Shown here piece by piece: positions 1,089 through 4,463 of a stretch of DNA of 32,372 nt. The notes under the pieces are model-generated. The model saw only the letters and a program-made list of their open reading frames with translations. It did not search any database and was not told where the DNA came from. This DNA is from Candidatus Gastranaerophilales bacterium. Lineage in GTDB: Bacteria; Cyanobacteriota; Vampirovibrionia; Gastranaerophilales; Gastranaerophilaceae. Both the position numbers and the translations under genes were made by a program. The stretch is from positions 1-32,372 of the forward strand of contig CALUSJ010000044.1 in the NCBI GenBank assembly GCA_944323405.1, read 5' to 3'. Positions within the stretch are counted from its first letter, which is position 1. Every line of letters begins with the position of its first letter.

Positions 1089-1959
1089 AAAATTATTGAA
1101 AAAAGATAAAATAAAAAATATTCAACAAGAAATCTGTTATATAAGGCAAGATTTGCTTAATACTTATTATCTTAATCTTGAAATATATAAAAATCAATTA
1201 TATTTATTAAATGATTTAAATGTCTTAAAAGACAATCATTGTAATATTAAATTCTTTGCAGAAAAGGATTGTGCAGCTGAAAGTAACGATTGTAAATATC
1301 CAGAAGCAACCTTGGATGGTATGACTAGACATCCGTCTTTCACAAAAAGAATAATTGAACTTTTTGGAGAGGAAGCATCTCTTCTTGATATAGGCTGTGG
1401 TGCCGGAGGTATTGTTTTTGATGCCATAATGCAGGGTATAGTAGCTTTTGGAATAGATGGCTCTGATTTCAATAAAAAGATAGGTCACGGTTACTGGAGT
1501 ATTTTAAAAAACAATCTGCTTACTTGTGATGCCACTAAAAAATATTACTTTGAAAAAGAAGGAAAACCTTATAAGTTTAAAGTAATTTCTTGTTGGGAAT
1601 GTTTAGAACATATTCCTGAAACCCTTATTCCTAATTTTTTAAATAATGTTTTTCAAAATCTAGATAAGGATGGTTACTTTTTAGGTTCAATCTCAAAACT
1701 TCCATACGAGAAAGATGGTATTATTTATCATATAACATTGAAGGATGTTACTTGGTGGAAATCTAAGTTTAATGAACAAGGTCTTTCATTTCAAACACAT
1801 AGTTTTACGCCATTTCTAATTCAAGATTTTTGTAGAGGTACAGGTCTAGGTTGGCAAGATTTGCATACTAATTATATTAAATACCCAGAAAATGGGATTA
1901 TTTTTGTTGCCAAAAAGATGGAAAATGTGTATGCAATACAACCCCGGGGGGGGAGGTAA
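1066..1959 (+). CDS. Class I SAM-dependent methyltransferase of the glycan operon
   Basis: Predicted Rossmann-fold methyltransferase, 297 residues from the chosen start. Motif I is [10 protein letters not shown], the acidic end of strand 2 is GIDGSDF, and the post-III region reads WECLEHIPE, as in sugar and glycan O-methyltransferases of the Methyltransf_11/23 type. A charged, helical N-terminal segment of about 60 residues precedes the domain. An SD (GGAGG, 1056-1060) sits 5 bases before ATG 1066; the frame is open further left to a TTG at 1051, but those starts overlap the SD. It overlaps gmhB by 23 bases. The last codons run through an 8-G tract (1946-1953), so the C-terminus is sensitive to slippage. 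The sugar it methylates cannot be told from sequence. Confidence 0.78.
1946..1953 (+). repeat. Poly-G tract (G8) at the end of the methyltransferase gene
   Basis: Eight consecutive G, preceded by four C, in otherwise very AT-rich DNA and inside the last codons of the methyltransferase gene. As given, the frame closes at 1957-1959. With one more G the frame would continue for 14 residues to a TAG at 1995-1997, just before the SD of the next gene (2005-2011). With one fewer it would stop at about 1965. Such tracts are known contingency loci in surface-glycan genes of other bacteria; here that role is inference. Confidence 0.7.
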
Positions 1960-2018
1960 ATGTTAATTTTGGTCAAGTTCATAAGTATGTTGCATAGCAA
2001 AACTAAAGGAGTTTTATT

Positions 2019-4463
2019 TTGAAAGAGAGTATAAATTTATATAATATAATAGACAGTTTTTGTTCATTTATTTATTGCTTATATAAAATTAATTTATATA
2101 AACTTTTAAGTCATTTTCCTTTTTATAAAATAAAAGCTTTAAATAAAGTAAAAAAGTATGAAGAGCTACTAGAACAAAATTTAAAATTATATTTTTTATC
2201 TGAAAAATTTTCTATAAACAATTTAAGTCAAATGATGGCTACAAACTTAGATATTATAAGGGCTAAAGCTAATATTATAAATAGAGATAGTGGAAAAAAA
2301 TTTATTTTAATAATAGGTTCGTTAAAATATGCCAGTTATTTGTCTTTATATTCAAATTCTATATTAAAATCTCTAGAATATAAAAATATAGTAGTTCACT
2401 TTTTTGACATATTATCGGGAAAATTAATAAGAGTTGATAATGAAACTTATGAACAAAATGAAGATTACAAAGAGGTATTGTATAGTTCTAGTATAGAAAA
2501 TATTGATGCTTCTATGTATGATATTTCTATACAAATAATAGATGCAAATTTTGAATTGGTAACTCCTTTAAAGCCTGCAAAAATAGCATATGCATATATT
2601 ATACCAGTAGATAATGAAAAAATATATGAAAATGTAAGTAATACAGTAAATATTAGTTTTGATGCGGTATTGTATCCTATAAAAGGAATGGATGATGTTT
2701 TATACAAAAACGAAGTTTTGTTACCTAAATTTTATATTCCTTTTTCAATAGATTTAAATTTGTATGAAAGATTTAATTTTTATCCCAATGAAGATAAAGT
2801 AAAAATTTGTTTTATAGGTAATATTAAAGATTTAGAATTATATTTTAGGCCTCTTTTAGTAATAAATAATTTTTTAATAAAAAATAATATTGATATTGAA
2901 TTTATTTATTTTGAAGCAAATCCAAATTTTCAAAGAGAGTGTATAAAAGATGAAGAATGTATTGTAAAAAAATTAGAAAAATTACAAACAAGCAATATTA
3001 AATTAAAAAAAGGTTTTTTATATTTACTACCACCTGAAATTTATGAAATAAATAAAAAATTTGATTTAATAGTTTATACTGAAAATGTTGAAAATTATAT
3101 GTATAATCCTATCCAAAGTGTAACTTGCGGAAAATGTGCAGTATTTCCGAATACATATAAAATTTCGGGATTAATTTCTAATGTTGAAGGTTGTTATAAA
3201 TATGCAATGAATAATAAAATTGATAATATTATTTCTATAATAAAAGATTTTGTAAACAACAAGAAAAAAATATATAGTAAGAATAGTGTAAGTAAAAGAA
3301 AAGATATTGGAAAAATATATAGTTTAGAAAATAATAAAATATTTTATAATCAGTTATTATTTCCTCAAGATTTAATACTAGGACATAATAATGAAATTTT
3401 AAAGTCTGGCCTTCAGTTCAAAGAACAAAATTTATATGTAAAATATAATTATTATGAAAAGCGAAAGGAGTATAATATAAAAGGGGAACTAATCCCTGTC
3501 CCCATTCATGATGCGGGTTTTGGTTCTGTTTTGAATAAATATGTAAGTTTATTAGTATATTCTAAAGAAAATGAAATATATCTTCCGGATTGGCGAATTA
3601 TAAATTTGGCTAGAAATCGATATAATGTTTTTAAAGATCACAATTTTTGGTCTTTTTGTTATGGAAAAGCAGAAGATGAAAATGTTTTTCTTAAAATATT
3701 TGAACTTCCATATAGTGAAGATATAGTTTCAAAAGAATTATATCAATCTGATATTATGTATGAAAAAGCTATTAAACAAAGCTTTTTTACTGAGTACAAT
3801 ATAGAAAAAGAACCAAATCTGGCTCATATGTCTAAAAGTTTGTATAAAGATGATTATTTTAATGAATTTAGAAAAAAATATCATGAAGCATATGAAAAAT
3901 ATATAAAATTAAGACCTGAATATCAAAATAAAATTGATGATTTTTCTGATAAGTATTTAGAAAATAAATTTAAAATAGGTATACATATTAGATGTGCTGC
4001 ACATCCTGATGAATCTATTGAGAATATAGAAAATACAAATTTTCATAAGCATTTTGAAAAATATAATGATGAGATACTTAAAATATTGAAAAATAATAGT
4101 ATTGATGTATTTGATCAAAATTGGGTTTTATATATTGCAACTGATAATGATATTGCATTAGATTATTTTGTTAAAAGATATCCTAACAATATTTTATATT
4201 CTAATGATATTTCACGCCTTACTCGGGAAGAGGAAATGGAATATGAAAAAGATAAAATGGAAGCCGGTAGATATCTTATTGGGTATGAGTTACAGCAGCG
4301 TAGATCAGTAAAAGATTCTTTAAGGAATATTAAATTAGCTGAAGAAATTTTATTTGATATGCAAATTTTATCAAAAATGGATTATTTTATTTTCCAAAAT
4401 TCTAATGTTCCAATGGCTGTAAGTTATATGAATCCAAAGTTAAACATGATTTATCTTGATTAA
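2019..4463 (+). CDS. Two-domain glycosyltransferase with C-terminal fucosyltransferase-like domain
   Basis: Large (814-residue) cytosolic or membrane-associated enzyme, probably acting on a surface glycan. The C-terminal third (about 490-814) resembles GDP-fucose transferases of the GT23/O-fucosyltransferase type: it starts with a GFGSVLN segment, has IGIHIR at 653-658 (the GDP-contacting HxR-type motif), then an IATDND strand, and ends with a DYFIFQNSN segment of the kind that closes the donor site. The N-terminal part (1-480) looks like a second GT-B-type unit with alternating strands and helices (KFILIIGS near 90; an SVTCGKCAVFPN segment near 370). The start is TTG 2019 with SD AAAGGAG at 2005-2011; no ATG is better placed. 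The DNA is strikingly AT-rich except for a short GC-richer patch at the domain boundary near 3478-3530. Donor and acceptor are unproven. Confidence 0.68.
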   Translation: MKESINLYNIIDSFCSFIYCLYKINLYKLLSHFPFYKIKALNKVKKYEELLEQNLKLYFLSEKFSINNLSQMMATNLDIIRAKANIINRDSGKKFILIIGSLKYASYLSLYSNSILKSLEYKNIVVHFFDILSGKLIRVDNETYEQNEDYKEVLYSSSIENIDASMYDISIQIIDANFELVTPLKPAKIAYAYIIPVDNEKIYENVSNTVNISFDAVLYPIKGMDDVLYKNEVLLPKFYIPFSIDLNLYERFNFYPNEDKVKICFIGNIKDLELYFRPLLVINNFLIKNNIDIEFIYFEANPNFQRECIKDEECIVKKLEKLQTSNIKLKKGFLYLLPPEIYEINKKFDLIVYTENVENYMYNPIQSVTCGKCAVFPNTYKISGLISNVEGCYKYAMNNKIDNIISIIKDFVNNKKKIYSKNSVSKRKDIGKIYSLENNKIFYNQLLFPQDLILGHNNEILKSGLQFKEQNLYVKYNYYEKRKEYNIKGELIPVPIHDAGFGSVLNKYVSLLVYSKENEIYLPDWRIINLARNRYNVFKDHNFWSFCYGKAEDENVFLKIFELPYSEDIVSKELYQSDIMYEKAIKQSFFTEYNIEKEPNLAHMSKSLYKDDYFNEFRKKYHEAYEKYIKLRPEYQNKIDDFSDKYLENKFKIGIHIRCAAHPDESIENIENTNFHKHFEKYNDEILKILKNNSIDVFDQNWVLYIATDNDIALDYFVKRYPNNILYSNDISRLTREEEMEYEKDKMEAGRYLIGYELQQRRSVKDSLRNIKLAEEILFDMQILSKMDYFIFQNSNVPMAVSYMNPKLNMIYLD

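Follow-up and report, generated by a model that had tools for sequence, protein, structure and literature searches.

A poly-G tract at the 3' end of a glycan-operon methyltransferase gene of Candidatus Gastranaerophilales, a plausible C-terminal contingency tract

A class I SAM methyltransferase gene in a Candidatus Gastranaerophilales MAG carries eight G in a row within its last codons, and we regard the locus as a plausible C-terminal contingency tract. Our preferred but tentative reading, to which we give somewhat less than an even chance, is that this G8 is a slippage-prone tract ending a glycan-operon methyltransferase in the layout of C-terminal phase variation; that its length varies at this site, and that selection keeps it there, we infer. 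An earlier note had proposed a phase-variable C-terminus in a glycan gene. This interpretation is partly supported: the reading frames, the glycan operon, published precedent for C-terminal switching (PMC2823697) and poly-G loci elsewhere in the MAG speak for it, whereas the tract is no on/off switch of the enzyme. The window, that is the whole stretch of DNA analysed, is contig 44 of the MAG (G000:C44) with a length of 32,372 nt; the MAG comprises 1.76 Mb in 172 contigs. Coordinates of the features are collected in Table 1.

The tract, its three frames and the operon

The tract lies in the context CCCC-G8-AGG-TAA (1942-1959), read as the codons CAA CCC CGG GGG GGG AGG TAA and directly followed by ATG. 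In the assembled G8 frame the stop TAA (1957-1959) comes one residue past the tract, which leaves the run three bases 5' of the stop. With seven G, translation would end at TAA 1963-1965 after a tail of about 3 residues, and with nine G at TAG 1995-1997 after a tail of 14 residues, seven bases 5' of the SD AAAGGAG. The number of G given by the earlier note was thus confirmed, as was its frame arithmetic, in which one G gained adds 14 residues to a TAG ending at 1997 and one G lost moves the stop to 1965. It had further placed this TAG close to the next SD, which is correct for the TAG at 1997.

The PF13489 (Methyltransf_23) match stops at residue 241 of 297, so the whole domain is located upstream of the poly-G tract. 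Since the domain is complete before the tract is reached, slippage cannot turn the enzyme off, and an ON/OFF translational contingency locus at G8 was rejected. As judged from the domain and the frame translations, the methyltransferase gene ends in a homopolymeric run in which slippage alters the C-terminal residues only and not expression, the arrangement expected of C-terminal phase variation. Two further candidates were discarded. A frameshift fusion of the methyltransferase to the next gene was rejected because stops are present in all frames, and the 20-codon ORF opening right after the methyltransferase TAA was rejected as a real coupling peptide on account of its non-coding codon usage; it is probably not a gene.

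Table 1. Features of the window and of two further poly-G loci of the same MAG
Feature	Contig	Position	Strand	Evidence and remarks
Sugar-1-phosphate nucleotidyltransferase, HddC-like	C44	2..604	+	NF049965, E=9e-45, 153 bits; best match, below the 300-bit cut-off
GmhB-like heptose bisphosphate phosphatase	C44	597..1088	+	TIGR00213, 170.4 bits vs cut-off 149.6
Class I SAM methyltransferase, 297 aa	C44	1066..1959	+	PF13489, E=9.4e-12, residues 94-241; C-terminus ..AIQPRGGR and stop at G8
Poly-G tract (G8)	C44	1946..1953	+	Sequence
Alternative 14-residue C-terminal tail and TAG	C44	1953..1997	+	Translation; predicted use at G9 (or G6, G12); coding-like codon log-odds
TAAATG	C44	1957..1962	+	Sequence; G8-frame stop and adjoining ATG, also the core found after G-runs genus-wide
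20-codon ORF	C44	1960..2022	+	ATG right after the methyltransferase TAA; final TGA overlapping the TTG of the gene that follows
Next gene, 814 aa	C44	2019..4463	+	TTG start at 2019; SD AAAGGAG at 2005-2011
DUF4422 glycosyltransferase (L018)	C73	202-1125		G10 at 259-268, between start codon and domain, in frame
Repeat protein with signal-peptide-like stretch (L023)	C110	2910-4397		G12 at 3032-3043, near the 5' end; Pmp outer-membrane repeat match

Codon usage was compared to ask which of the three ends is native. The tail in the G9 frame scored 2.5 bits (13 codons after GAG) against a median of 2.6 for coding segments from the operon. Among dinucleotide shuffles 2-5% attained this value, the tail outscoring 97.7% of the shuffles; for segments read out of frame the share was 8-10%, and for intergenic ones 6%. 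Counting the 14 open codons and the two alternative frames, a non-coding tail this good has a p of about 0.04. Because codon usage in the G9 frame is coding-like, the native protein probably ends with the 14-residue tail, and the assembled G8 would then be one base short of the native length; for both statements the evidence is modest. Close relatives of the methyltransferase were found neither in 65 genomes of the genus and 383 of the order nor in genome_contigs, phages and plasmids, and a PDB search returned generic methyltransferase matches only, none of which extended to the C-terminus. In viral contigs, no other copies of the tract junction with a different G count were found.

The HddC-like and GmhB-like genes upstream of the methyltransferase bear out the glycan/heptose operon setting that had been claimed before. 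Downstream of the 814-aa gene follow another glycosyltransferase-like gene and genes for an RmlD-like reductase and a cupin. With HddC-like and GmhB-like genes on the 5' side and glycosyltransferase-like, RmlD-like and cupin genes on the 3' side, it is a fair reading that the methyltransferase sits in a surface-glycan operon. The gene cluster has a GC content of 0.22-0.32 and is without relatives in the genus. For the protein encoded by the 814-aa gene, no match was obtained in Pfam and NCBIfam and no relative among 97 genomes. Its sequence includes IGIHIR, apparently a motif of the HxR type that is characteristic of fucosyltransferases, and the GC content of its gene is very low (22%); this gene was likely acquired recently.

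Under the preferred reading, replication slippage would add or remove one G while the enzyme is still made, and its last residues would swap among three tails of 1 (G8), about 3 (G7) and 14 residues (G9). The assembled G8 could then be a variant short of one base or, in a mixed population, the minority or the consensus state. Depending on the stop used, the ribosome would terminate 59 or about 21 bases short of the next start codon, and translation of the following gene may be weakly affected.

Long G tracts in the MAG and its relatives

The counts of G-runs in the MAG drop to 10 at G7 and then level off, with six runs at G8, four each at G9 and G10, and three at G12. Compared to an expectation extrapolated from the geometric fall-off of the shorter runs, tracts of at least eight G are clearly in excess genome-wide (17 observed vs about 2.5-4.3 expected, p 3e-6 or less), as are tracts of at least nine (11 vs about 1), and the local expectation is about 3e-4 G8/C8 runs per kb. 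The MAG is thus genuinely rich in long G tracts, and the methyltransferase tract stands at their short end. As runs of exactly eight G show just a mild, marginal enrichment (6 observed vs about 2-3 expected), the G8 tract taken singly could be of chance origin.

Three of the MAG tracts with at least eight G are found inside reading frames, all in glycan or surface genes: the G10 of the DUF4422 glycosyltransferase, the G12 of the Pmp-repeat protein and the G8 of the methyltransferase. Alignments of the DUF4422 glycosyltransferase to its homologues begin only at about the tract end. From their sequence and arrangement, the G10 and the G12 are likely convincing textbook 5' contingency loci, the product of the Pmp-repeat gene is likely a phase-variable surface protein, and the organism probably uses poly-G contingency loci. 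Moreover, four near-identical repeat copies near contig ends (L014, L016, L019 and L024 on contigs C49, C59, C78 and C134) carry G12, G12, G10 and G10, respectively. Since these copies differ, G10 vs G12, tract length drifts within the MAG, and does so faster than the flanks. In related species, in-frame G9 runs occur in genes for a hexapeptide acetyltransferase (L036), a GmrSD-type restriction/defence protein (L037) and a membrane protein (L045), which are further candidates for contingency loci.

Of the 17 long G tracts, eight lie no farther than 560 nt from where a contig ends (p about 2e-4; 0.013 after collapsing the repeat copies). This clustering suggests that contigs were broken at repeats or at tracts of variable length. 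In the genus, repeats of the form Gn-TAAATG/A are often tandem, with units of about 50-60 nt that start at the stop of the upstream gene on the coding strand (L067, L101, L104, L138, L146). A pattern built for the genus-shared repeat unit matched almost only Candidatus Gastranaerophilales MAGs. Rfam gave no match for the window or for the repeats, the sole match being a tRNA in L019.

Alternative explanations of the tract

The tract might instead be a copy of this genus-wide extragenic G-rich repeat, which is found at coding-strand stops and would here supply the TAA of the methyltransferase, the change of tail being a side effect. That the repeat exists is evident from the counts of GGGGTAAATG, with 6-264 copies per genome vs 0-17 for the reversed control and an excess in all 63 of 63 genus genomes; in the genus, TAAATG or TAAATA follows 24% of G5 runs vs 1% of G3 runs. 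Its association with stops is visible in unbiased tiles from six species (800 kb), where 17 of 28 same-strand clusters start -25 to +3 nt from a stop, seven of them sharing the G of TAG, and G-run clusters of the G9-selected set have the same stop-codon placement. The window run fits this position, beginning on the same strand 14 nt before the end of the stop. Its G8-AGG-TAAATG, in which AGG separates the G-run from TAAATG so that the core adjoins indirectly, resembles the interrupted cores in L079, L085 and L104, and other genes read through such tracts in a like manner, ending in ..SDYKGGGK, ..YKSLGGGG or ..QLMGGGKWR before the stop. Nevertheless, the sequence following TAAATG in the window is no closer to the repeat unit than shuffled sequences are, in a test of a kind that 30 of 40 real units pass and that a quarter of the sampled real copies therefore fail too. 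Furthermore, this MAG shows the motif less strongly (GGGGTAAATR, 48 vs 9), only 3 of 13 same-strand copies there are near a stop, a TAAATR within 0-3 nt has a chance of about 1%, and the codons downstream of the window tract are coding-like in the G9 frame. Because the window is without a downstream unit and the motif is weaker in the MAG, we rank this explanation second, behind C-terminal phase variation, and consider it unlikely, albeit with some weight. A far-reaching extension, in which hypermutable stop-attached Gn-TAAATR runs would form a genus-wide system altering protein ends and termination of many genes, with the window copy tuning the methyltransferase and the next gene through three stops, is in our view very improbable.

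The run may also be neutral, decaying or due to chance: the loss of one base from a run of G9 (or shorter) would have cut the tail by 13 residues with no effect, and no selection would act. The methyltransferase domain is intact, about 2 runs of exactly eight G are expected in the MAG by chance, and a low-GC cluster (0.22-0.32) without relatives in the genus is a pattern frequent in recently acquired genes, all of which would agree with a neutral run. We find it rather doubtful, considering that locally a G8 is expected by chance only about 3e-4 times per kb and that in-frame tracts of at least eight G in the MAG are limited to surface and glycan genes. Alternatively, the assembly could hold a homopolymer miscount or the consensus of a mixed population, the real gene having nine G and the longer end. 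The G9 tail appears native, which would agree with such an error, and the MAG is split into 172 contigs, with eight of the 17 long tracts close (560 nt or less) to a contig end. On the other hand, the contig is unbroken at the methyltransferase tract, and short-read assemblies, should this be one, seldom miscount runs of 8-9. We consider an assembly error improbable.

Relation to known systems and significance

C-terminal phase variation as we propose it for the methyltransferase has its closest precedent in H. canadensis, where eight genes with 3' poly-G tracts, assembled at G10 or more, show read-level variation and where frame-dependent tails measure a few to tens of residues, as in flaG with 2/0/16 (PMC2823697). 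Similar C-terminal cases are known from N. gonorrhoeae (PMC5320596). The window shares with both species a 3' poly-G tract, a domain that is translated first and tails of comparable kind (1/about 3/14), and the location of several of the genes in one clustered region is a further likeness to C-terminal phase variation. It differs from H. canadensis in tract length, G10-14 being assembled there vs G8 in the window, and in phylum (Vampirovibrionia). While all C-terminal tracts of H. canadensis are G10 or more (PMC2823697), G8 tracts have been reported as variable in N. gonorrhoeae (PMC5320596).

With the poly-G contingency loci in glycan genes of Campylobacter and Helicobacter the window has in common a poly-G tract in an AT-rich genome and a glycan operon, and the G10 on C73 and the G12 on C110 are likely examples from the same MAG. 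In contrast to those loci, the methyltransferase tract is at the 3' end and cannot turn the enzyme off. The nearest published analogue of the genus GGGGTAAATR repeats are the G-rich stop-proximal repeats GGGNATC and GGGGA(C/T)T of Xanthomonas and Nostoc (PMC4692102), which are likewise located near or over stops on the coding strand. The Gastranaerophilales unit differs from these, having a longer, length-variable G-run and, in several species, a tandem arrangement of units of about 50-60 nt; the window copy is without the repeat unit.

Our literature search found no paper joining Gastranaerophilales with phase variation. The tract alone is a modest finding; more promising are the genus-wide stop-codon repeat and the pair of 5' contingency loci. 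If the methyltransferase tract varies, it would add a C-terminal contingency locus for this gut-dwelling, non-photosynthetic sister group of cyanobacteria.
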